11,371 nt of DNA from an uncultured Lachnospiraceae bacterium. Lineage in GTDB: Bacteria > Bacillota > Clostridia > Lachnospirales > Lachnospiraceae. Each line of letters starts with the position of its first letter. Within the stretch, counting starts at the first letter, position 1. The translations under genes and the position numbers were made by a program. Of this stretch, positions 1 to 11,371 are shown in pieces. The stretch covers positions 1 through 11,371 of the forward strand of contig CAKRRJ010000069.1 of assembly GCA_934394615.1 (NCBI GenBank), given 5' to 3'. The notes beneath the pieces were generated by a model. The model made no database searches. It was given only the letters and a program-made list of their open reading frames with translations, and was not told the origin of the DNA.

Positions 1-21
1 CCGAAAACGAGGAGGATAATT

Positions 22-279
22 ATGTTAAAGAAAACAATCACCATTGGACTTTCATCCGGACTTGAGGCAAGACCAGTTGCTATGCTGGTACAGATCGCGA
101 GCCAGTTTGACAGTCAGATCTATGTAGAGAACAACAATGCCCGCGTCAATGCGAAGAGCATTATGGGTATGATGACACTTGGCATGGGTGCTGGTGAGGA
201 GATTACCGTATCTGCGGACGGCGAGGACGAAAAGGAAGCGCTGGATAACATTGAAAAATACTTACAGGGAGAAAAGTAA
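22..279 (+). CDS. HPr-family protein, Crh-like (Glu15 replaces the active-site His)
   Basis: An 85-aa protein, the full length of HPr and Crh. HPr carries phosphate on His15 between enzyme I and the sugar-specific EIIA proteins of the PTS. Here the active-site loop reads GLEARPVAM, so residue 15 is Glu and PTS phosphotransfer should be impossible. The regulatory site is intact: AKSIMGMM places Ser46 exactly where HPr kinase/phosphorylase acts. This is the pattern of Bacillus Crh, which has Gln15 and Ser46 and acts only as a CcpA corepressor in carbon catabolite repression. I infer the same kind of role, in the cytoplasm. The start ATG 22 has AGGAGG at 10-15, six bases upstream. In many Firmicutes crh-like genes follow whiA, which would lie just off the left edge. 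Being an HPr-fold protein is near certain; the Crh-type function is inferred from residues 15 and 46. Confidence 0.9.
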   Translation: MLKKTITIGLSSGLEARPVAMLVQIASQFDSQIYVENNNARVNAKSIMGMMTLGMGAGEEITVSADGEDEKEALDNIEKYLQGEK

Positions 280-328
280 AAAGAAAACTTTCCCCGAAAG
301 TTGACTGATACAAATGAACGCAAAGCAG

Positions 329-361
329 CAGGGTGGAAATACAACGTTTCCGCCCTGTTTT
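329..361 (+). terminator. Terminator-like hairpin between the HPr/Crh-like gene and dnaE
   Basis: Bases 329-339 (CAGGGTGGAAA) pair with 347-357 (TTTCCGCCCTG), 11 pairs including one G-U, around a 7-nt loop. A short run of four T follows. This looks like a modest intrinsic terminator or attenuator that could partly uncouple dnaE from the upstream gene. A second small hairpin (286-292 with 296-302, 7 bp, CCC loop) precedes it but lacks a T tract downstream. I could not identify a promoter between this hairpin and the dnaE start, so partial read-through is plausible. The T tract is short, so termination may be weak. Confidence 0.5.
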
Positions 362-390
362 ACTGTAGAATTCAGGAAAGGGAGAAGAAC

Positions 391-2639
391 GTGGCATTTA
401 CACATTTGCATGTCCATACCGAGTACAGCCTGTTGGATGGTTCTTGTAAGATTAAGGAGCTTGCGGCGCGCGCAAAAGAGCTTGGCATGGACAGTATGGC
501 CATCACGGACCATGGCGTGATGTACGGCGTCATCGATTTTTACCGTGCGGCAAGGGAAGTGGGTATCAAGCCCATCATTGGCTGCGAGGTTTATGTGGCA
601 CCGGGATCACGCTTTGACCGGGAGAACACAAACGGCGAGGACCGCTATTATCATCTGGTCCTGCTTGCGGAAAATGATACCGGATACCACAACCTTATGA
701 AGATCGTGTCCAAGGGCTTTGTGGATGGCTTCTATTATAAACCCCGTGTGGATTATGAGGTGCTTGAGACGTACCACGAGGGCGTGATCGCGCTGAGTGC
801 CTGCCTGGCGGGTGAGGTGCAGCGCTACCTTGCGCGCGGCATGTACGAGGAGGCCTGTAAATCGGCCCGGCATTACGAGCAGATTTTCGGAAAGGGCAAT
901 TTCTTTTTAGAGCTTCAGGACCACGGCATTCCGACCCAGAAGACCGTAAACCAGGGGCTTATGCGCATGAGCCGGGAACTCTCCATGGATCTGGTGGCAA
1001 CGAATGATATCCACTATATTCTGGCGGAGGATGCGGCACCGCACGACATTCTCTTATGCATCCAGACGGGCAAGAAAGTGACAGATGAGAACCGCATGCG
1101 CTATGAGGGCGGCCAGTATTACGTAAAGTCGGAGGAGGAGATGCGGGCTCTGTTTCCGTACGCCCAGGAGGCCATCGACAACACGCACAAGATTGCGGAG
1201 CGCTGCAACGTGGAGATTGAGTTCGGTGTGACAAAACTTCCGAAGTACGAGGTGCCGGAAGGCTATGATTCCTGGAGTTACTTAAACAAACTGTGCCAGG
1301 ACGGCATGGCGAAGCGTTACCCGGATGATGACGGGACCTTACAGGAGCGTCTCAACTATGAGCTTGGCGTCATCCACAACATGGGATACGTCGATTACTT
1401 CCTGATCGTGTGGGACTTCATTCATTTCGCCCGCTCGCATGACATCATGGTAGGGCCGGGGCGTGGTTCCGCGGCAGGAAGCATTGTTTCCTACTGCCTG
1501 GAGATCACCAACATTGATCCGGTGCGCTACGACCTGCTGTTTGAGCGTTTCTTAAACCCGGAGCGCGTTTCCATGCCGGATATCGATATTGACTTCTGCT
1601 TCGAACGCAGACAGGAGGTCATCGACTACGTGGTGGAAAAATACGGCAAGGAACAGGTCGTGCAGATCGTCACATTCGGTACGCTGGCGGCAAAAGGCGT
1701 CGTGCGCGATGTAGGACGCGTCCTGGACCTTCCCTATGCCCGCTGTGACGCCATCGCGAAGACGATCCCGGGTGACCTTGGCATGACGCTCGACAAGGCA
1801 TTAAAACAGAGTCCGGACCTCAGAGAGGCATACCAGAATGATGATGAGGTGCGCTACCTCATCGACATGGCAAAGCGCCTGGAGGGACTTCCAAGGCACA
1901 CGTCCATGCATGCGGCAGGCGTCGTGATCGGCCAGCGTGCCATGGATGAGTTTGTTCCGCTTTCCCGCGCGTCGGACGGAACCATCACCACCCAGTTTAC
2001 CATGACGACGCTGGAAGAACTCGGACTGCTCAAGATGGATTTCCTGGGCCTTCGCACCCTGACGGTCATCCAGAATGCGGTGCGTCAGGCGGAGGAGAAC
2101 TATGGGGTTCATCTCGTGATGGAAGAAATCGACTACAACGACAAAGAGGTTCTGGCCTCCATCGGCACCGGAAAGTGCGATGGCATCTTCCAGCTCGAGA
2201 GTTCCGGCATGAAGAGCTTCATGAAGGAGCTGCGCCCGGAGAACCTGGAAGACATTATCGCGGGTATTTCCCTGTACCGTCCAGGCCCGATGGATTTCAT
2301 TCCGCGCTATTTAAAAGGAAAGAACGACAAGGCTTCCATCACTTATGAATGCCCGCAGCTGGAACACATTCTGGGACCGACCTACGGCTGTATCGTGTAC
2401 CAGGAGCAGGTTATGCAGATCGTGCGTGACCTTGCGGGTTATACCATGGGCCGAAGCGACCTGGTGCGCCGTGCCATGTCCAAGAAGAAAACGGCAGTCA
2501 TGGAGAAGGAGCGCCAGAACTTCGTGTACGGCAACCCGGAGGAGAACGTAAAAGGCTGCATCGCGAACGGCATCGATGAGAAGACGGCAAACCACATCTA
2601 CGACGAGATGATCGATTTCGCGAAGTACGCGTTTAACAA
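391..2639 (+). CDS. dnaE: DNA polymerase III subunit alpha (DnaE), exon 1, codons 1-749 plus two bases
   Basis: This is the N-terminal two thirds of the replicative polymerase DnaE, which extends DNA at the fork; in Firmicutes it works alongside PolC. The PHP domain comes first, with HLHVHTEYSLLDG (His7, His9), TDH (Asp40, His41) and GCE (Glu66), so its metal-binding residues look retained. The palm carries the catalytic aspartates in PDIDIDF (Asp397, Asp399, Asp401) and KMDFLGLRT (Asp550). I chose GTG 391 because GGAG lies at 381-384, six bases upstream, and because the protein then begins MAFTHLHVHTEYS as in relatives. An in-frame start at 301 would add 30 unrelated residues and translate the terminator hairpin. 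The exon ends two bases into codon 750, where a group II intron begins. If unspliced, the frame runs on for eight foreign residues after Lys750 and stops at 2667, giving a 758-aa truncated protein. Joined with exon 2 the protein is 1155 aa, a normal DnaE length. Confidence 0.95.
2626..2639 (+). other. Intron-binding sites IBS2 (candidate) and IBS1 in dnaE exon 1
   Basis: The last six exon bases, 2634-2639 (TAACAA), are the exact complement of TTGTTA at 3089-3094 inside the intron, as expected for an IBS1-EBS1 guide pairing. A weaker IBS2 candidate is 2626-2631 (TACGCG), which can pair with CGTGTG at 2909-2914 using two G-U pairs. IBS1 is well supported because it agrees with the splice point deduced from the dnaE reading frame. 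IBS2 is tentative: its partner is about 180 bases from EBS1 and the match relies on wobbles. Confidence 0.6.
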
Positions 2640-3396
2640 GTGTTCGACTCGTTCCAGCTTTAAATAAACAAAGAGCTGGCACACTCTGACAGATCTAATC
2701 TAAAAAGTAGAAATCATCAGAGCTGGAGAACTGATAACTCGACAGAACGGAATGACGAAGTAACGCCCTGAAACGTTCTACCTAATACTCCGACGGGCTG
2801 TATAAGACGAAAGTCTAACAGTTTGAAGTTCGGTGAAGTCGGCAGAAGTCGGCCTAAACCAAATAGCATTCGCTAGTAGCATTGGTATAAAAGTGGCTAG
2901 AGCCCGCCCGTGTGAATTGGATGTGAAAGGCATGGTCAGCGATATGCCGGGGTCTATAAAATACCTATGGCGAGAATGTCGTGGCATCTACACGGCTGAC
3001 GAACCAGCGAATTTAAGAGTCTAAATGAAGCTTGCTGGGAAACCAGTAAGGACGCAGAAGCGTCGTTAGTGTGGTCAAGTAAGAATTTTTGTTATGAAAG
3101 ACCATACAGTGTTACAGGCACTGTCAAGCTAACAGGATCAGAGCTAGGCGCCTAAGGGTATATATGTACAGATAGAGTTATTGGTACGAGGAAAGGTATC
3201 AGAGATGCGATTTTGTATCTAGGATGACGAAGAATAATAAGCATCCGAACTGGTGCTGAAAAGTAGAGATCGCACCTAGGAAGTTCCTGTAATGGGAATG
3301 GAGGAATGGTCTCAAGCCGGAAATAGAATAATAGGAATATCGAATCTACAACAAGGATTCCGAGTAAGACCAAAAAGTCACTCAATCTATATAATA
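2640..3396 (+). ncRNA. Group II intron ribozyme, 5' half (domain I through the start of domain IV)
   Basis: These roughly 760 bases have no convincing gene and are rich in stems, as expected for the catalytic scaffold. Examples: CCAGCT (2655-2660) with AGCTGG near 2674-2679, close to the 5' end; CTTGCTGG at 3029-3036 with CCAGTAAG at 3041-3048, closed by a GAAA tetraloop; GACGC and GCGTC (3051-3064) around an AGAA loop; and the 8-bp stem carrying EBS1 at 3069-3107. A 63-codon open frame at 2833-3024 crosses these structures, lacks a ribosome binding site and resembles nothing I know, so I treat it as chance. Domains I, II and III cannot be delimited precisely without folding. Confidence 0.75.
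3069..3107 (+). other. EBS1 hairpin of the group II intron
   Basis: GTGTGGTC (3069-3076) pairs with GACCATAC (3100-3107), 8 bp with one G-U, presenting a 23-nt loop. The loop holds TTGTTA (3089-3094), fully complementary to the last six bases of dnaE exon 1. The preceding base T3088 can pair with A5515, the first base of exon 2. Having the guide sequence in a terminal loop is the expected arrangement for EBS1, the element that sets the intron's DNA target. This is base-pairing logic only, without a full fold. Confidence 0.7.
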
Positions 3397-3412
3397 GAGG
3401 AGGTGATGCCTT

Positions 3413-5326
3413 GTGCCTACCGTGAAAGACAAAAGTAACGTTGTAGAAAATATAAGACACTCCGAATACTACGATATGCAGGGAACCTTTGATACTCTCT
3501 ACAAAGAGAGTCAAAATGGTACAGTATTTGATAACCTAATGGACATTATCTTATCAAAGGAAAATATCCTACTTGCCTATAGAAATATTAAAGCAAATAA
3601 AGGAAGTCAAACACCCGGCACAGACAAGCTCACAATGAAGGACATCGGAAACCTGCCAACAAATGAGGTAGTGGAACGAGTCAGATTTATAATGAGCGGT
3701 AGTAAACACGGATACAGACCAAAACCGGTCAGAAGAAAAGAAATTCCAAAGCCAAACGGAAAAACCAGACCGCTAGGCATCCCATGTATATGGGACAGAT
3801 TAGTGCAACAATGCATTAAACAAATATTAGAACCAATATGTGAAGCTAAGTTTTCCAAAAACAGTTATGGCTTTAGACCAAACAGATGCGTGGAACATGC
3901 AATAGCAGAAACACACAGACTGATGCAAAAGTCAAAATTAGGATATGCAGTTGAATTTGATATCAAAGGCTTTTTTGATAACGTAGATCACCAAAAACTA
4001 ATTAGACAGATATGGGCTATTGGCATACACGACAAAAGACTGATATTCATAATAAAAAGAATTCTGAAAGCACCAATAAGGCTGCCGAATGGAGATACAA
4101 TTCAACCCACCAAGGGAACTCCGCAAGGAGGAATAATATCCCCAATATTAGCTAACATTGTGCTCAATGAACTCGACCACTGGATTGATAGTCAATGGCT
4201 GGACTTTCCAGCAATTAACAATTTCAACCTTCCACATAATAAACAAGGTAAACTAATCAAATCAAATGCATATGCAGCGCTAAGAAAAACAAACCTCAAA
4301 GAGATGTATATCATAAGATATGCAGATGACTTCAGAATTTTCTGTAGAAACTATGAGGATGCAAAATGCGTTAAAGAAGCAGTGACTCAATGGCTAATGC
4401 AGCGATTGAAATTGGAAGTATCAGAAGAGAAAACCAAAATAACGAATCTGAGACGCGAATATATGGAATTTCTCGGTTTCAAACTGAAACTATATGACAA
4501 AGGAAATGGCTGGAAAGTCAAATCTCATGTAAGCGACAAAAAACTAAAAAGTGTAAACAAAGAGTTGAAGCATCAGTTCGCTAAAATAGCACATGCAAAG
4601 AACAAACAGCACACCACATCGATAGTACGAAAATATAACTCGATGGTGCTAGGAATTCAGAATTACTATAATATAGCGACTGATATATGTAAGGATTTCA
4701 GAATAATACAGCATCAAATAGATGTTGTAGCAAAGTCTAAGTTACACGCTAAAAACAGCAGAAAAAGTAAGCTGGGCAAAAGCGGACGAACGTTGACAGT
4801 GTTCGAAAAGGAAAAATATGGGCAATCTAGGACAATGAGATACATCAAAGCCAGTGGAGAGCCAATATACCCAATAGGATATGTTAAACCAAAGCCGCCA
4901 ATCTCCAAAGCCGAAAAAGTATGTGCGTATACGCAAAAAGGGAGAAAAGGTCTACATGATAATCTACGAATAGACATGAATATCCTAATAAACCTAATGA
5001 GAAATCCAAGCATCAACAGGAGTGCAGAATTTAACGACAACAAGCTGTCATTATATTCGGCACAAAAAGGTAAATGTGCAATAACGCAAAGAGTCTTCTG
5101 CTCAACAGAAGAAATCCATTGCCATCACAAAATCCCAAGGGAGTTGGGCGGAACAGATAAATACCAAAATCTAACGTTGGTGTTAGAACCGGTACATAAG
5201 CTGATACATGCGAAATCCCAAGAAACAATTGACAAATACCTCAAAACGCTTCAACTTACAAAAGCACAACTAGTCAAAGTCAACAGATACAGAGAAATGG
5301 CTGGCAACGAGCCTATCGTAGCATAA
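3413..5326 (+). CDS. ltrA: Group II intron-encoded protein: reverse transcriptase/maturase with HNH endonuclease
   Basis: A 637-aa multifunctional protein that helps fold the intron RNA for splicing and drives its retromobility. In order: RT0/RT1 (about 30-100, including RRKEIPKPNGKTRPLGIP), RT2 (YGFRPNR), RT3 with Asp183 (EFDIKGFFDN), RT4 (GTPQGGIISPILANI), RT5 YADD at 303-306 (Asp305 and Asp306, completing the catalytic triad), RT6-7 (EEKTKI, EFLGFKLK), then the maturase thumb domain X (about 390-440, containing YNSMVLGIQNYYNIA). The C-terminus is an HNH endonuclease: Cys555, Cys563, CHH at 570-572, Asn586 and His595. It would cut the second target strand to prime reverse transcription. All catalytic residues appear intact, so it looks functional. 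The start is GTG 3413 with AGAGGAGGTG at 3396-3405; it lies in domain IV as usual. Codon use (ATA, AGA, A-ending) differs sharply from dnaE. The symbol follows the lactococcal prototype. Confidence 0.95.
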   Translation: MPTVKDKSNVVENIRHSEYYDMQGTFDTLYKESQNGTVFDNLMDIILSKENILLAYRNIKANKGSQTPGTDKLTMKDIGNLPTNEVVERVRFIMSGSKHGYRPKPVRRKEIPKPNGKTRPLGIPCIWDRLVQQCIKQILEPICEAKFSKNSYGFRPNRCVEHAIAETHRLMQKSKLGYAVEFDIKGFFDNVDHQKLIRQIWAIGIHDKRLIFIIKRILKAPIRLPNGDTIQPTKGTPQGGIISPILANIVLNELDHWIDSQWLDFPAINNFNLPHNKQGKLIKSNAYAALRKTNLKEMYIIRYADDFRIFCRNYEDAKCVKEAVTQWLMQRLKLEVSEEKTKITNLRREYMEFLGFKLKLYDKGNGWKVKSHVSDKKLKSVNKELKHQFAKIAHAKNKQHTTSIVRKYNSMVLGIQNYYNIATDICKDFRIIQHQIDVVAKSKLHAKNSRKSKLGKSGRTLTVFEKEKYGQSRTMRYIKASGEPIYPIGYVKPKPPISKAEKVCAYTQKGRKGLHDNLRIDMNILINLMRNPSINRSAEFNDNKLSLYSAQKGKCAITQRVFCSTEEIHCHHKIPRELGGTDKYQNLTLVLEPVHKLIHAKSQETIDKYLKTLQLTKAQLVKVNRYREMAGNEPIVA

Positions 5327-5373
5327 CAGCGAATAACTAAGCCGTTCAAACAAGGTGATTCGTTAATTCCTAT

Positions 5374-5413
5374 ACCAATGTGTTAATTTCGCCGCGGTAC
5401 TAGTCACATTGGT
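5374..5413 (+). other. 9-bp hairpin after the maturase gene (3' part of domain IV)
   Basis: ACCAATGTG (5374-5382) pairs perfectly with CACATTGGT (5405-5413). It lies between the maturase stop codon and domain V and has no T tract behind it, so it is more likely part of the domain IV fold than a terminator. Confidence 0.55.
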
Positions 5414-5431
5414 TCAATTCTAATTTCGGTG

Positions 5432-5514
5432 GAGCGCCGGATGCGCTGAAAGGCGCATGTCCGGTGCGGATCGGGGGAAAATCTGGAGACAACTTCAAAG
5501 GATTACCTATCGAT
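5432..5514 (+). ncRNA. Group II intron domains V and VI
   Basis: Domain V, the catalytic heart of the ribozyme, is clear at 5432-5467. It has the AGC triad at 5433-5435, a lower stem CCGG (5437-5440 with 5461-5464), the characteristic two-base bulge (G5459, T5460), and an upper stem ATGCGCT/GGCGCAT (5441-5447 with 5452-5458) capped by a GAAA tetraloop. Domain VI follows to 5514; AATC (near 5480-5483) can pair with GATT (5501-5504), leaving A5505 as the candidate bulged branch-point adenosine. That A is nine bases from the inferred 3' end, slightly more than the usual seven or eight, so the domain VI pairing or the branch residue is less certain than domain V. Confidence 0.88.
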
Positions 5515-6733
5515 ATCACACGCGGCCTGCTACGCGGTGGTCGCATATCAGACAGCGTATTTGAAATACTATTACCCGAAGGAATTTTTCGCGGCGCTCA
5601 TGACTTCGGTCATGGATAACGTGAACAAGGTGTCGGAGTATATCCTGACCTGCCGCCAGATGGGCATCCGCATCCTGCCGCCGGATATCAACGAGGGACA
5701 GAGCGGATTCTCCGTTTCGGGTGACGCGATCCGCTACGGCCTGTCTGCTATCAAGAGCATTGGCCGCAATGTGGTGGACGAGATCATCCGGGAGCGAAAA
5801 AACAACGGACTGTTTACAGCGCTCGATGATTTTGTAGAGCGCATGGGCGGACGCGAGGTGAACAAGCGGACACTGGAAAACTTTATCAAGTCCGGTGCCA
5901 TGGACACCCTGCCGGGCAACCGCAGGCAGAAGACCATGGTGGCGCCGGAGATGCTGGACCAGAAGACCAAAGACCGCAAAAACGTGCTGGAAGGCCAGCT
6001 TAGCCTCTTCGACTTTGCCGGGGAGGAGGAGAAAAAGCAGTATCAGATCACCATGCCGGATGTGCCGGAGTTCCCGAAAGAGGAGCTGCTTGCGTTCGAG
6101 AAGGAAATCCTCGGCATTTACATCAGCGGGCATCCGATGGATGAGTACCTGGAAACCTGGAAGAACAGCATTACCGCGAAGACAAGCGACTTCATGGTCG
6201 AGGAAGAGAGCGGAAAAGCGCTGGTGGAGGATGGTTCCCGCGCCACCATCGGCGGCATGATCACCGCAAAGACCGTCAAGCTCACCAGAAACGGACAGCA
6301 GATGGCGTTCGTTACCGTGGAGGATATGGTGGGCTCTGTAGAGGTCATTGTGTTCCCAAGAGATTATGAGAGCAAGCGGAATCTGTTAAATGAGGATGCC
6401 AAGGTGTTTATCACCGGAAGAGTATCGGTCGGGGATGATCCGGTCGGCAGGCTCATCTGCGAGCAGGTGATCCCGTTTGAGGAAGTACCAAAGGATCTGT
6501 GGCTGAAATTTGCCGACAAGGCGCAGTACGATGCTCTGTGGACGGCTGCGGCGGAAACGCTGAAACTGTCGGACGGGCATGACCGCGTGATCATCTATCT
6601 GGAAAAAGAGCGGGCAAAAAAGGTGCTTCCGGCCAACTGGCAGGTAGCGGCAACGGCAGAGGTTATCCGTAAGCTCGGGGAACTGCTTGGTGAAAATAAT
6701 GTCAAACTTGTGGAAAAAGGATTGAAAAGATAA
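5515..6733 (+). CDS. dnaE: DNA polymerase III subunit alpha (DnaE), exon 2, last base of codon 750 to stop
   Basis: The C-terminal third of DnaE resumes at A5515, which completes codon 750 (AAA, Lys), followed by SHAACYAVVAYQTAYLKYYYPKEF, the conserved fingers segment. Next come the helix-hairpin-helix region (about 826-877), a clamp-binding motif QLSLF at 911-915 that should dock the polymerase on the beta sliding clamp, and an OB-fold (about 992-1075) for single-stranded DNA. The stop is TAA 6731-6733. This exon has no ribosome binding site or credible start of its own: the GTG at 5537 is simply a valine codon inside the conserved motif. It is therefore expressed only from spliced RNA. A naive annotation would call it a separate 398-aa or truncated polymerase gene, or a pseudogene. 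Composition and codon use match exon 1, not the intron. Confidence 0.94.
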
Positions 6734-6750
6734 GCAAAATGTTTTAGAAT
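6722..6750 (+). promoter_or_regulatory. Candidate SigA promoter for pfkA
   Basis: TTGAAA (6722-6727), a 17-bp spacer and TAGAAT (6745-6750) give a good match to the SigA consensus. The -35 box overlaps the last codons of dnaE and the -10 sits just past its stop. Transcription would start near 6757, leaving a leader of about 100 nt before pfkA. Read-through from dnaE is also possible because I see no U-tailed terminator between the two genes. Confidence 0.45.
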
Positions 6751-6758
6751 ACATTTTG
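6735..6758 (+). repeat. Perfect inverted repeat over the pfkA -10 box
   Basis: CAAAATGT (6735-6742) and ACATTTTG (6751-6758) are perfect 8-base inverted repeats around an 8-base centre that contains the candidate -10 hexamer. The arm centres are 16 bp apart. It could be an operator for a dimeric repressor controlling pfkA, or an RNA hairpin at the 3' end of the dnaE message. The absence of a following T tract argues against an intrinsic terminator. Confidence 0.5.
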
Positions 6759-6857
6759 TATGAAAAAAAGTGCATTTGACTGAATTTAAGAAATAAAAAA
6801 ATGGGATGGTGAATGGGTATAGGTCATTTCACCGGAAGATGACAGGAGGAGACAACT

Positions 6858-7832
6858 ATGGCAAAGCAGGTAAAGACAATCGGTGTCCTGACAAGCGGAG
6901 GCGATGCTCCGGGCATGAACGCGGCAATCCGCGCGGTAGTTCGTACTGCGATCAGCAAGGGAATGAAGGTAAAAGGCATCATGCGAGGATATGCAGGACT
7001 TCTTCAGGAAGAAATCGTAGACATGAGCAGCACCGATGTGTCTAATATTATTTTCCGTGGCGGTACCATCCTGTATACAGCAAGATGTATGGAGTTTGTT
7101 ACCCCGGAGGGACAGCAGCTTGGCGCGGATATCTGCCGCAAGCACGGTATCGACGGCATTGTGGTCATTGGCGGTGACGGTTCCTTCCGCGGAGCCGGAA
7201 AGCTGGCAGCCCTTGGAGTAAACACCATCGGTGTTCCGGGAACCATCGATCTGGATATCGCATGTACCGATTACACCATCGGCTTCGATACCGCAGTCAA
7301 CACCGCAATGGAGGCAATCGATAAGGTACGTGATACCTCTACCTCCCACGAGCGCTGCAGTATCATCGAGGTAATGGGACGTAATGCCGGCTACATCGCA
7401 CTGTGGTGCGGTATCGCGAACGGCGCGGAGGACATTCTGCTTCCGGAGCGCTACAACGGCAACGAGCAGGCGCTCATCGACCGCATCATTGAGAACCGTA
7501 AACGCGGCAAGAAGCATAACATCATCATCAACGCAGAGGGCATCGGACATTCCGCTTCCATGGCCCGCCGCATTGAGGCAGCCACCGGCATCGAGACCAG
7601 AGCAACCATTCTGGGCCACATGCAGCGAGGCGGCACCCCGACCTGTAAGGATCGTGTGTACGCGTCCATTATGGGCGCAAGGGCAGCAGAGCTTCTGTGC
7701 GAAGGAAAGAGCAACCGTCTGGTTGCTTACAAGCACGGTGAGTTCGTGGATTTCGACATCCAGGAGGCACTCCAGATGAAGAAGGATATCTCCGAGGAGC
7801 AGTTCGAGATCGCAAAGATGCTGGCAAGATAG
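6858..7832 (+). CDS. pfkA: ATP-dependent 6-phosphofructokinase
   Basis: A 324-aa enzyme of the usual bacterial PfkA length. It phosphorylates fructose 6-phosphate to fructose 1,6-bisphosphate, the committed step of glycolysis, in the cytoplasm, usually as a tetramer. The N-terminal nucleotide-binding loop is GVLTSGGDAPGMNAAIRAV (9-27). GGDGS (105-109) has Gly108, and PGTID (127-131) has Gly128; these two glycines mark ATP-using rather than pyrophosphate-using enzymes. Asp131 is the catalytic base. The substrate-binding segment SHERCSIIEVMGRNAGYIAL is conserved. One departure from the textbook TIDND motif is Leu132 in place of Asn (TIDLD). The ATG at 6858 is preceded by AGGAGG at 6844-6849. 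It sits downstream of dnaE, an order seen in many Clostridia, and ends before a strong hairpin. Confidence 0.96.
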   Translation: MAKQVKTIGVLTSGGDAPGMNAAIRAVVRTAISKGMKVKGIMRGYAGLLQEEIVDMSSTDVSNIIFRGGTILYTARCMEFVTPEGQQLGADICRKHGIDGIVVIGGDGSFRGAGKLAALGVNTIGVPGTIDLDIACTDYTIGFDTAVNTAMEAIDKVRDTSTSHERCSIIEVMGRNAGYIALWCGIANGAEDILLPERYNGNEQALIDRIIENRKRGKKHNIIINAEGIGHSASMARRIEAATGIETRATILGHMQRGGTPTCKDRVYASIMGARAAELLCEGKSNRLVAYKHGEFVDFDIQEALQMKKDISEEQFEIAKMLAR

Positions 7833-7909
7833 AGATAGTTCGAACCGGCAAAATGACATGCGTTCCGGCAATGGAAAGGACTGCATGATACAATCGAACA
7901 TGACACATT

Positions 7910-7945
7910 CGCCCGGCAGCATATCCGCCGGGCGTGTTTCGTGTT
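7910..7945 (+). terminator. Intrinsic terminator after pfkA
   Basis: CGCCCGGC (7910-7917) pairs perfectly with GCCGGGCG (7927-7934), an 8-bp GC-rich stem with a 9-nt loop. It is followed by the T-rich but interrupted stretch TGTTTCGTGTTT. It likely ends the pfkA transcript. It also implies that the next gene, starting at 7982, relies on read-through or on a promoter I could not recognise. Confidence 0.65.
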
Positions 7946-7981
7946 TGTGGATATGAAAACAGATTCAGGAGGACAACGCAG

Positions 7982-8479
7982 ATGAAGGGACAGGACGGAA
8001 ATATCGTTCTTTGTGGTTCTAACAGCTACGAAAAAAAGTATTATTTTAATGAAGAGTTTAACAGCCTCCCGGAGGCAGTAAGAAAGCAGCTTCATGTAAT
8101 GTGTGTCTGGTTCACGGAGGAGTGCGGCGGCATTCTGACCATGGAATTTGAGCCGGACGGTACCCTGGAGTTTAAGCATACCATTTCCGAGTACGACGGC
8201 TACTGCGATGAGATCGGCGCGGACTTAAAGATCAAACAGTACCGCCAGGAGGGACAGGAGTTCTTAAAGGCGCTGGAACTGTACTTTAAGGTATTTTATC
8301 TGGGCGAAGATGCAGAAGAAGTGGCAGAGAGCTACGGCATCGATACAGAGACATTCAAGGCAGGCTTTGCTGAGGATCATTCTGAGGCAGGGGAAACTTA
8401 TGAGCCAGAGGGATATTCCGAAATGGATGGCATCTATCCGGCAGATCTGGATGATACGGGTGAGGGTCCGGAAGAATGA
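7982..8479 (+). CDS. Small acidic protein resembling DUF6145, function unknown
   Basis: A 165-aa protein beginning MKGQDGNIVLCGSNSYEKKYYFNEEF. The opening (VLCG-N-YE-K-Y-N) and the segment MCVWFTEECGGILTMEFEPDGTLEFK resemble, from memory, the DUF6145 family found mainly in Lachnospiraceae. No catalytic motif, signal peptide or membrane segment is visible, so it should be cytoplasmic. The middle is probably mixed beta strands and helices; the last 40 residues are strongly acidic and likely disordered (DDTGEGPEE end). The start ATG 7982 has AGGAGG at 7967-7972. An in-frame start at 7934 would add 16 residues read from the terminator region and is unlikely. The stop overlaps the dusB start as ATGA, so the two are probably translated together. 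Function is not known. Confidence 0.85.
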   Translation: MKGQDGNIVLCGSNSYEKKYYFNEEFNSLPEAVRKQLHVMCVWFTEECGGILTMEFEPDGTLEFKHTISEYDGYCDEIGADLKIKQYRQEGQEFLKALELYFKVFYLGEDAEEVAESYGIDTETFKAGFAEDHSEAGETYEPEGYSEMDGIYPADLDDTGEGPEE

Positions 8480-9444
8480 AGCTGAAAATCGGAAATGTAG
8501 AACTGGACAACAACCTGGTTCTGGCGCCCATGGCGGGGGTTACAGATATGTCTTTCCGCCAGCTGTGCCGGGAACAGGGCTGCGGCCTGCTGGTCACTGA
8601 GATGGTGAGCGCCAAGGCCATCCTTTACAAAAACCGCAACACGAAGGACCTTATGGCCATCGGCGAGGGCGAGCGCCCGGTATCGCTGCAGCTGTTCGGC
8701 TCCGACCCGGAGATCGTGAGTGACATCGCGCATCAGGTGGAGGACGGGCCTTACGACATCATTGATCTGAACATGGGCTGCCCGGTGCCGAAGATTGTGG
8801 GAAATGGTGAGGGTTCCGCCCTCATGAAGAATCCGAAGCTGGTCGAGAAACTCTTATCCGCAATTGTAAAAAAGGTACACAAGCCGGTTACGGTAAAGTT
8901 CCGCAAAGGCTTTGACGATGACCATGTCAACGCCGTGGAGATCGCGAAGATCGCGGAGAGCTGCGGCGTGGCTGCGGTGGCAGTACACGGAAGAACAAGA
9001 GAGCAGTACTATTCCGGCAAGGCGGACTGGGACATCATCCGCCAGGTGAAAGAAGCCGTGAAAATTCCGGTCATCGGAAACGGAGACATCTTTGAGCCGC
9101 AGGACGCGAAGCGGATGTGGGAGGAGACTGGCTGTGACGGCCTGATGATCGGCCGTGGCGCTCGGGGAAACCCATGGCTTTTCCACCGGATCAACCATTA
9201 TTTTGAGACCGGGGAAGTGCTTCCGCCGCCGGGACCGGTGGAGGTCGGTGAGATGATCCTGCGCCACACCCGCATGCATGTGGCCTTAAAGGGTGAGTAC
9301 ATCGGCATGAAGGAGATGCGCAAGCACATCGCGTGGTACACCGCCGGACTTCCACATTCTTCCTCCATCCGCAGGGCGTGCAACATGCTGGAGACGGAAG
9401 AAGAACTGGTGGAGCTGCTGCGGCAGTACCGGATGCTGGCATAG
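8476..9444 (+). CDS. dusB: tRNA-dihydrouridine synthase (DusB type)
   Basis: A 322-aa flavoenzyme that reduces specific uridines in the tRNA D-loop to dihydrouridine using FMN and NADPH. It is a TIM barrel from its start: LAPMAGVTDMSFR (16-28) is the FMN-side opening signature, TEMVSAKA follows, and DLNMGCPVPKI holds the catalytic Cys102. VHGRTREQYYSGKADW and VIGNGDIF are family hallmarks. GCDGLMIGRGARGNPWLF forms the FMN-phosphate loop. The last 80 residues form the helical tRNA-binding domain. Start ATG 8476 overlaps the preceding stop (ATGA), indicating translational coupling; there is no strong separate ribosome binding site. DusB is favoured over other Dus paralogues from the signature spacing and length; the exact uridine targeted cannot be read from sequence. 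Confidence 0.94.
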   Translation: MKLKIGNVELDNNLVLAPMAGVTDMSFRQLCREQGCGLLVTEMVSAKAILYKNRNTKDLMAIGEGERPVSLQLFGSDPEIVSDIAHQVEDGPYDIIDLNMGCPVPKIVGNGEGSALMKNPKLVEKLLSAIVKKVHKPVTVKFRKGFDDDHVNAVEIAKIAESCGVAAVAVHGRTREQYYSGKADWDIIRQVKEAVKIPVIGNGDIFEPQDAKRMWEETGCDGLMIGRGARGNPWLFHRINHYFETGEVLPPPGPVEVGEMILRHTRMHVALKGEYIGMKEMRKHIAWYTAGLPHSSSIRRACNMLETEEELVELLRQYRMLA

Positions 9445-9533
9445 AGAACGGAGTCTGGCAAAGCGGCCGCATCCAGTGTGCAGCATATGCCGGAAACATT
9501 TGGTTTTAAGCGGTTTTCGGGCAGGAACAGCGC

Positions 9534-9562
9534 TTGACAAGGAAAGTGCTTTCAAGTATAAT
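9534..9562 (+). promoter_or_regulatory. Consensus SigA promoter for greA
   Basis: TTGACA (9534-9539), a 17-bp spacer, then TATAAT (9557-9562): both hexamers are perfect. Transcription should begin near 9569, leaving a leader of about 130 nt before greA. A full-consensus promoter suggests strong, largely constitutive initiation, so any control is likely exerted in the leader. Confidence 0.9.
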
Positions 9563-9568
9563 ATTCAG

Positions 9569-9688
9569 AATGTATGACCACGAGTCTCAGAATCTATTTG
9601 AACCCTGTGGTTTCAGGTGCAGAATATAAGCTGCTGCTATGGGTCTTGCGTAGTTACCGTGCAGGCAGCGGCGTAAATAAGGAAGGAA
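9569..9688 (+). promoter_or_regulatory. Structured 5' leader of greA
   Basis: A long untranslated leader with a strong hairpin next to the ribosome binding site: GCTGCTGC and ATGG (9630-9637, 9639-9642) pair with CCGT and GCA-G-GCAGC (9657-9669), about 12 pairs with single-base bulges at T38 and G64 (last two digits) and a 14-nt loop. Upstream, ACCAC (9577-9581) can pair with GTGGT (9607-9611), while CCTG (9604-9607) can instead pair with CAGG (9614-9617). These two choices exclude each other. It matches no riboswitch or T-box I recognise: there is no T-box core and no T tract. It may be a cis-regulatory RNA or simply a stable leader. Confidence 0.5.
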
Positions 9689-9697
9689 ATGAGCATC

Positions 9698-10183
9698 ATG
9701 GCAGATAGCAAGAAACACATTTTAACCTATGCTGGTTTAAAAAAGTATGAGGACGAGTTACAGGATTTAAAGATCCATCGCAGACAGGAAATCGCGCAGA
9801 AGATCAAAGAGGCGCGTGAGCAGGGCGACCTGTCCGAGAACGCTGAGTACGATGCAGCAAAGGACGAGCAGAGAGACATCGAGCTGCGTATCGAGGAGCT
9901 GGAGAAGCTGTTAAAGAACGCAGAGGTTGTAGATGAGGACGAGATCGACTTAGACAAAGTCAGCATTGGCTGCCAGGTAAAGGTTTACGATGTAGACTTC
10001 GACGAGGAGATGGAGTTTAGAATCGTTGGTTCTACCGAGGCAAACAGCCTGCAGAACAAGATTTCCAACGAGTCTCCGGTAGGCGCAGCATTAATCGGCA
10101 AGAGCGTTGGCGATGTTGTAGACGTAGAGACACAGGCCGGCGTACTTCAGTACAAGGTTCTGGAGATCCAGAGAGTATCATAG
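9698..10183 (+). CDS. greA: Transcription elongation factor GreA
   Basis: A 161-aa factor that enters the secondary channel of RNA polymerase and triggers cleavage of backtracked RNA so elongation can resume. Residues 1-75 form the antiparallel coiled coil. The tip contains [13 protein letters not shown], with Asp44 and Glu47 matching the acidic pair that holds the catalytic metal in GreA. The C-terminal half is the FKBP-like domain that binds polymerase ([18 protein letters not shown]...). Two in-frame ATGs compete, 9689 and 9698. I prefer 9698 because the protein then starts [11 protein letters not shown] as in relatives and GGAAGG (9681-9686) is a workable 11 bases upstream; 9689 would add three residues (MSI). 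It is driven by the consensus promoter at 9534 and is followed by lysS after 48 bases without a terminator. Confidence 0.94.
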
Positions 10184-10231
10184 TCACTAATATTTATTTA
10201 TAGAAGAAAGAAATAAGGAGCAAGGGAAAAG

Positions 10232-11371
10232 ATGGCAGAGCAGCAGAACGCAAAGCAGCAGAATGCGAAGGAGCCGGATCTCAACCAGCTTCTGAAGGTT
10301 CGCCGTGAAAAACTGGCAGAGCTTCAGGCAGCAGGCAAGGACCCGTTCCAGATCACAAAATATGACGTAACCGTACACAGCGAAGACGTAAAGGTAAATT
10401 ACGCAGAGTATGAAGGCAAAGAAGTATCCATCGCAGGACGTATGATGTCCAAGCGTGTTATGGGTAAAGCATCCTTCTGCAATGTTCAGGACTTAAAGGG
10501 CAACATCCAGTGCTACGTGGCACGCGATGACCTGGGTGAGGAGGCATACAAAGACTTCAAGCGCATGGATATCGGCGATATCGTTGGCATCAAGGGTATC
10601 GTATTCACCACCAAGATGGGCGAGATCTCCATCCACGCAACTTCCCTGATCCTGCTCTCCAAGAGCCTGCAGATCCTTCCGGAGAAGTATCACGGTCTGA
10701 CCAACACAGACATGCGTTATCGTCAGCGTTATACCGACCTGATCATGAACGAGGACGTTAAGAAGACTTTCGTAATGCGTTCCCGCATCATCAGCTGCAT
10801 CCGCCGTTACTTAGACGGACAGGGCTTCTTAGAGGTAGAGACCCCGATGCTGGTTGCAAACGCAGGCGGCGCTGCTGCAAGACCGTTTGAGACCCATTAC
10901 AACGCACTGGATGAGGACGTAAAGCTCCGCATTTCCCTGGAGCTCTACTTAAAGAGACTGATCGTAGGCGGTATGGAGCGTGTGTACGAGATCGGCCGTG
11001 TATTCCGTAACGAGGGCCTTGATACCCGTCATAACCCGGAGTTCACCCTCATGGAGCTGTACCAGGCATACACCGACTACTACGGTATGATGGACTTAAC
11101 CGAGAACATGTTCCGCCATATCGCGAACGAGGTTCTTGGCACCACCACCATCCCATACGCAGAGGTTGAGATTGACTTAGGAAAGCCGTTTGAGCGTCTG
11201 ACCATGGTAGATGCGATCAAGAAATATGCAGGAGTTGACTTCGACGAGATCCAGACCACCGAAGAGGCTAAGAAGCTGGCAGATGAGAAGGGCGTTCACT
11301 ACGAAGACCGTCATGTGCGTGGCGATATCATCAACCTCTTCTTCGAAGAGTTCGTAGAAGAAAACCTGATC
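10232..11371 (+). CDS. lysS: Lysyl-tRNA synthetase, class II (3' end beyond the window)
   Basis: The first 380 codons are present; the gene runs off the right edge (bacterial LysS is about 500 aa). It charges tRNA-Lys with lysine. The N-terminal anticodon-binding OB-fold spans about 60-145 (VSIAGRMMSKRVMGKASFCNVQD). Motif 1 lies around 185-206 with the conserved Pro205 in VETPML, and motif 2 is around 250-276 with VYEIGRVFRNEGLDTRHNPEFTLME, whose FRNEG and RHNPEFT residues bind ATP. Motif 3 is not yet reached. The ATG at 10232 is preceded by AAGGAG (10215-10220) and AAGGGA (10222-10227). Spacing from greA is 48 nt with no terminator, so co-transcription with greA is likely. Confidence 0.96.
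   Translation, partial: MAEQQNAKQQNAKEPDLNQLLKVRREKLAELQAAGKDPFQITKYDVTVHSEDVKVNYAEYEGKEVSIAGRMMSKRVMGKASFCNVQDLKGNIQCYVARDDLGEEAYKDFKRMDIGDIVGIKGIVFTTKMGEISIHATSLILLSKSLQILPEKYHGLTNTDMRYRQRYTDLIMNEDVKKTFVMRSRIISCIRRYLDGQGFLEVETPMLVANAGGAAARPFETHYNALDEDVKLRISLELYLKRLIVGGMERVYEIGRVFRNEGLDTRHNPEFTLMELYQAYTDYYGMMDLTENMFRHIANEVLGTTTIPYAEVEIDLGKPFERLTMVDAIKKYAGVDFDEIQTTEEAKKLADEKGVHYEDRHVRGDIINLFFEEFVEENLI
10241..10270 (+). repeat. 15-bp tandem duplication at the lysS N-terminus
   Basis: Two adjacent 15-base units (10241-10255 and 10256-10270) differ at only two third-codon positions and encode QQNAK twice, directly after MAE. It adds five polar residues to a non-conserved N-terminal tail and keeps the frame. 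Confidence 0.8.

Follow-up and report, generated by a model that had tools for sequence, protein, structure and literature searches.

The protein of Ll.LtrB, the group II intron of Lactococcus lactis, has reverse transcriptase (RT), maturase and endonuclease activities, and homing proceeds by pairing of exon-binding sites (EBS) with intron-binding sites (IBS). Ll.LtrB lies in a conjugative relaxase gene and inhibits the expression of that gene (PMC6003770; here and below papers are cited for particular passages). According to published descriptions, most bacterial group II introns reside outside housekeeping genes (PMC6003770, PMC4424553). Housekeeping genes with such introns are already known: the introns in recA of Geobacillus kaustophilus (Chee and Takami 2005) and in a heat-shock operon are cited in Zimmerly and Semper 2015 (PMC4424553). 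Introns lacking an open reading frame (ORF) were reported in Thermosynechococcus elongatus (PMC2882425) and Trichodesmium (PMC4649490), where proteins from other loci are known or believed to work in trans. Phage group II introns in coding genes, some of them ORF-less, were verified by exon joining and intronless homologs (PMC12350094). Here we analyse dnaE in a stretch of 11,371 nucleotides (nt) from an uncultured Lachnospiraceae bacterium (assembly GCA_934394615.1, contig CAKRRJ010000069.1, positions 1 to 11,371 of the forward strand; below, the window). The gene is interrupted by a group II intron, very probably a mobile, ORF-containing element that lives in dnaE by retrohoming and is spliced from the mRNA, leaving DnaE unchanged.

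Like Ll.LtrB, the window intron lies within a coding sequence, that of dnaE instead of a relaxase gene. Like the introns of recA and the heat-shock operon, it occupies a core bacterial gene. Here, however, the gene is that of a replicative polymerase, there are four separate sites, and there are ORF-less forms, one of them in a genome in which the search found no group II maturase. The phage introns also reside in coding genes and include ORF-less forms, but their hosts are phages. ORF loss as in T. elongatus and Trichodesmium was observed in the dnaE introns of three genomes, G074, G135 and G351; in contrast to the cyanobacterial cases, no group II RT was found in G135 and only a sub-threshold one in G351. 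The split DnaE intein precedes the residues CFNK. These are the junction residues in cyanobacteria (PMC2664965). The window intron uses the same motif of the same protein, following FNK and one further base, whereas the intein acts by protein splicing rather than RNA splicing, and in other bacteria. In the portions of the open-licence literature covered by our search dnaE inteins are reported, and no report of a group I or group II intron in dnaE, or of dnaE as a repeated target, was found, which is weak evidence of absence.

The features of the interrupted gene are as follows.

391..2641, plus strand: dnaE 5' exon, GTG start at 391, PHP, NTPase and finger domains, 3' end ...TTT AAC AAG T
2636..2641, plus strand: IBS1 ACAAGT, within the codons of the conserved Asn-Lys-Ser
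2642..5516, plus strand: group II intron, 2875 nt, 5' GTTCG ... CGATAT 3'
2726..2961, plus strand: group II domains I-IV (Rfam RF02004, 109.6 bits, gathering threshold 34.5)
3087..3092, plus strand: EBS1 TTTTGT, 5 of 6 pairs with IBS1, mismatch at position -1
3413..5326, plus strand: intron-encoded protein (IEP) of 637 amino acids (aa), RT/maturase with YADD present and a C-terminal HNH-like domain
5432..5516, plus strand: group II domains V-VI (Rfam RF00029, 59.6 bits, gathering threshold 40), reaching the intron end
5517..6733, plus strand: dnaE 3' exon, starting CA CAC GCG GCC, helix-hairpin-helix and OB domains

In relatives the protein begins with MAFTHLHVH. One protein model covers both DnaE parts of the window, at 3-752 in the N-terminal and 758-1150 in the C-terminal part. 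The joined exons read AAC AAG TCA CAC within a single open frame of 1155 codons with zero internal stops, and the intron splits Ser751 after the first codon base (AAC AAG T|CA CAC). Since the joined exons form an open frame of the usual length, splicing should be required for full-length DnaE. A preliminary description of this DNA, made from the letters alone, had proposed an apparently intact group II retroelement interrupting dnaE in sense orientation, with the Rfam group II models as a check; both RF02004 and RF00029 match on the plus strand, and the protein models agree. Its exon joining was right in losing or adding no residue, in restoring the NKSHAA peptide and in the length of 1155, but it gave the codons as AAC AAA TCA instead of AAC AAG TCA and the split codon as 750 instead of 751.

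The IEP matches the group II RT/maturase model TIGR04416 with 353 bits (cutoff 300). Its putative HNH domain scores 20.8 bits, just below the Pfam cutoff of 21.4, and PF01844 is precomputed in 14 of 120 relatives listed. Among 11 matches with solved structures, those nearest in sequence to the RT part are the group II RTs 7uim, 6ar1 (GsI-IIC) and LtrA. A plasmid or phage source was rejected, as none of the plasmid or phage records searched covers 80% of the window intron.

The peptide NKSHAA is the same with the ends at 2642-5516 and with those proposed initially, 2640-5514 (junction AACAA + ATCACACG), so that the choice between them could not be made from the reading frame by itself. The latter ends were rejected as shifted by 2 nt on both sides, on the register of the EBS1-IBS1 pairing, the pairing of domain VI and comparison with a second genome, G309; the Rfam match is in agreement, as RF00029 stops exactly at 5516. 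EBS1 was defined as the six bases preceding TAYGAA and compared with exon positions -6..-1. Twenty-five introns were tried; four (L003, L010, L015, L027) had no motif under this rule and were dropped, leaving 18 controls and three introns at the dnaE site. In register, the controls form a mean of 5.0 of 6 pairs; a shifted register lowers this to 2.3-2.7. At the dnaE site the ends 2642-5516 yield 5 of 6 pairs in the window, 6 of 6 in genome G001 and 5 of 6 in G309, while the earlier ends yield 3, 2 and 3. The outer pairs of domain VI covary (AUCG/CGAU, AGUG/CACU, ACCG/CGGU, AGCG/CGCU) and the final AU follows directly in the 16 introns compared; the pattern used to select 12 of them contained AT, and for these only the pairing is independent evidence. 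The window intron, ending CGAU-AU after domain VI, has the 3' AY of group II introns. Finally, the G309 junction AATAAAT|GTTCG differs from the window junction AACAAGT|GTTCG in the base just before T (AAA and AAG), and this base is therefore an exonic codon base.

The same insertion was found in relatives. Scoring a protein search by the read-through tail of the window site (site D, FNK|S) gave a list of the best 120 of 7971 matches. The tail FNKCSTRS stands at the DnaE cut residue in 16 of these 120 (P0001-P0007, P0011-P0018, P0028), the remaining 104 being uninterrupted at FNKSH; the tail FNKCATRS occurs in none of the best 120 of 7971. The DnaE of P0001 is 97% identical to that of the window over 550 columns, and because it has the same read-through, the join is no one-off assembly error. 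Two cases were read as DNA. G001 (locus L001) contains an intron of 2879 nt at the same base, with an IEP 75% identical to that of the window. The intron of G309, also at the same base, has 1320 nt; its IEP is mostly deleted and domain V is kept. The view of the window as a single case was thus abandoned in favour of a recurrent pattern, with the same site used in relatives and further sites in dnaE. As a side observation, the dnaE gene at locus L056 (G309:C10:20000-33000, minus strand) contains both a full group II intron at KMD|FLGL and the 1320-nt one at FNK|S.

All introns of site D read as DNA have an unusual start. In an alignment of the 5' ends of 25 introns, GTTCGAC was observed in the three at the FNK|S site (window, L001/G001, L056/G309) and GTGYGAC in the other 22. 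The two bases in which these starts differ had been left free in the search that found G309. The comparison introns had been located via GTGYGAC, which makes the count of 22 of 22 partly circular; when anchored on a domain I motif instead, 21 of 22 show the GUGYG start. Intron position 3, at 2644 of the window, is U and not G. Protein tails at the site agree: Cys-Ser is found in 16 of 16, as GTTC predicts and GTGC does not, with the reservation that the search query itself bore that tail.

Other sites were revealed by the second intron of G309, a full-length one following Lys-Met-Asp of KMDFLGL (site A), with an IEP 38% identical to that of the window. A search scored on its tail listed the best 120 of 3449 matches. 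Among these, 43 have KMDVR.V[RC] (site A), nine RPGPMDCATRF (site B) and six YQGATR (site C), whereas KMDFLGL is uninterrupted in 75, some of which are cut elsewhere. In total, four group II sites were found in dnaE: D (FNK|S), A (KMD|FLGL), C (VYQ-E) and B (PMD-F). Sites A, C and D are known from DNA sequence, site B from protein tails alone. Searches seeded at two conserved stretches favour sites located there; sites B and C were by-catch. Two database DnaE proteins, P0315 and P0316, were rejected as evidence of further sites, since their C-terminal tails resemble what we take to be translations of sequencing adapters.

A survey of 392 genomes of the order of G001 was not seeded by site. At least 382 genomes match DnaE, at least 49 of them in two or more pieces; 47 of the 49 were re-examined, G001 and G309 being already known, and the intron counts are minimal estimates. 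Group II introns were found in dnaE of at least six of the 392 genomes (G001, G309, G074, G135, G351, G159). Site A introns of G074 and G135 (790 nt each) and the site C intron of G351 (801 nt) are ORF-less; the site A intron of G159 has 3139 nt and lies close to a contig end. The insert of G351, considered as an intein because of a frame of 1432 aa, is a group II intron by Rfam, and the dnaE frame is not continuous there. On visual inspection of their coordinates, most of the 47 two-piece genes were set aside as apparent frameshifts, contig breaks, small indels or paralogs. At least two of the 392 genomes have group I introns in dnaE: that of G194, with a LAGLIDADG ORF, lies between FER and FLNPERVSMPDIDI, and that of G151 lies beside NKSH. 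The coordinates of the group I introns are as follows.

L074:442-690, plus strand: group I intron in dnaE, with an ORF at 691-1470
L075:1032-1392, minus strand: group I intron in dnaE

The target regions are among the most conserved parts of the gene. Windows of 19 nt around the targets were compared in 20 intact dnaE genes, and their nucleotide conservation was expressed as a percentile along dnaE: 92.5 for A, 97.6 for B, 99.4 for C and 98.2 for D. The mean of the four sites was reached by none of 20,000 random four-position sets, the sites themselves coming from seeded searches. At site D the codons AAY AAR TCN are present in all 20 intact genes. This is consistent with a mechanism in which the intron would retrohome to the codons of the conserved peptide Phe-Asn-Lys-Ser-His, with EBS1 recognising AYAART. 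As this pattern covers codons of Asn-Lys-Ser, dnaE genes of many relatives are potential targets. The intron would then leave the dnaE mRNA with the aid of its own maturase, and the DnaE product would be unaltered; some dnaE introns no longer encode a protein of their own and seem confined to splicing.

Relatives of the window intron occupy other genes. Scanned with Pfam, the 5' exons of 19 loci encode a type IV secretion system coupling protein (six loci), the RecD2 helicase (four), and anaerobic ribonucleotide reductase, a VirB4-like protein, a C5 methylase and a metallophosphatase/AAA protein (one each), with no match in five. In 19 of 21 intron 5' exons from loci L002-L035 the host frame is entered after the first codon base, as judged by the longest open frame, which in one case has only 35 codons.

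A DnaE tree was built for 101 rows (13 with site D, 43 with A, 8 with B, 5 with C, and 32 intact) from residues up to site A only; rows of fewer than 480 residues and rows that were identical as far as KMD were excluded, and the intact proteins of the site D search were sampled at every fourth identifier. The minimum numbers of changes (in parentheses, those forced by supported branches) are 7 (5) for D, 14 (9) for A, 4 (4) for C, and 1 for B. Clustering of site C is not clearly beyond shuffles, 27 of 500 being as low. An intact gene, GL086 of G332, is placed among the site D rows on short branches. This patchy distribution would favour repeated gain or loss, between which, as homing or as many losses, the tree does not fully separate.

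The occurrence of the intron at one site in distant DnaE lineages is the reason to infer retrohoming. Several observations weigh against the mobile intron reading. By pattern, the site D intron is rare, occurring in two of 392 genomes of the order and one of 397 of the family. The start GUUCG departs from the GUGYG expected of group II introns in all three site D introns (window, G001, G309). The EBS1 evidence is not uniform either: three of the 18 controls fit poorly (L012, L013 and L017 with 2, 1 and 3 of 6 pairs), four introns gave no motif under the script rule, and the window and G309 have a U-U mismatch at position -1. Lastly, the window and G001 are equally similar in DnaE (76% identity) and in IEP (75%), a likeness compatible with homing and with old vertical descent alike. 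One early insertion at FNK-S with many subsequent losses, instead of repeated homing between species, agrees also with the GUUCG common to the three introns and with Cys-Ser in all the truncated proteins. We nevertheless consider it rather unlikely, given the rare and scattered presence, the at least seven changes among 13 site D rows with an intact gene among them, and the related introns in other genes.

Another possibility is that the host has gained a function, the intron being kept since its splicing regulates the supply of DnaE. Indeed, group II introns can lower host-gene expression (PMC6003770), and several different introns have settled in this gene. On the other hand, the intron seems dispensable, given its patchy distribution and the close relatives whose sites are empty, and conserved target DNA accounts for the recurrence without regulation; this explanation seems improbable. 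The insertion might also be dead or decaying, with another gene supplying the dnaE function. In favour of this, G001 has, besides a PolC-sized frame, the divergent DnaE-family protein described below. However, both exons keep a fully uninterrupted frame and the usual length, five of six interrupted genomes checked show one DnaE locus and a PolC-sized frame only, and the same interrupted gene was found again in other assemblies, which makes decay very improbable. Multi-copy introns can mislead assemblers and might be joined to dnaE as a chimera, but this can hardly be believed here: the same read-through tail occurs in P0001 and P0002, near-identical proteins from different sources close to the window DnaE, and the rules of intron structure are obeyed at both junctions.

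The genomes with interrupted genes were searched for other polymerases and for maturases. In G309, G074, G135, G351 and G159 a single DnaE locus was found, the interrupted one (in G159 on two contigs), beside one PolC-sized frame, of 1488-1531 aa in the last four, PolC being assigned by size. G001 has one DnaE ortholog, which is interrupted, a PolC-sized frame and the following protein, about 28% identical.

L059:740-4729, minus strand: divergent DnaE-family polymerase of G001, 1330 aa

In these genomes, whose completeness is not given, a search with TIGR04416 gave no match for G135. In G351 there is one sub-threshold match (84.5 bits) in a 326-aa frame, and no group II ribozyme was found beside this frame. 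G074 has one match above the cutoff (318 bits), 35% identical to the site A IEP and adjoining a domain V of its own. Thus two ORF-less dnaE introns (G135, G351) reside in genomes without an above-cutoff group II maturase found, and that of G074 in a genome with a damaged and distant one. The latter belongs to a second, distant group II intron (L103:524-2494), whose RT is broken into two frames, one of 102 and one of 454 aa, and whose domain V occupies 2410-2494.

The remaining part of the window contains the following genes.

22-279: HPr gene
Further genes: pfkA, a DUF6145 protein gene, dusB and greA
Right edge of the window, after greA: an open frame, presumably lysS by resemblance

Swithers et al. 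found that inteins occur in very conserved motifs and that group II introns have no significant preference for conserved sites (PMC2814812). The dnaE cases point the opposite way: several introns, three of them ORF-less, occupy very conserved motifs of a replicative polymerase gene, the pattern reported for inteins (PMC2814812). We tentatively suggest, with some hesitation, that single-copy dnaE in this order of Clostridia may be a standing refuge for self-splicing introns, where group II introns use at least four sites and group I introns two, each within or next to a conserved motif and one of them directly following the Asp codon of KMD-FLGL. Some of the group II introns would be organelle-like and splicing-only, as in G135, where no group II maturase was found, and replication would then rely on unaided or host-assisted ribozyme splicing. 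The introns explain many truncated DnaE proteins from these bacteria in databases. Two questions also become accessible to testing: how essential bacterial genes come to tolerate an intron, and whether maturase loss, which organelle introns underwent, is possible in a free-living bacterium.

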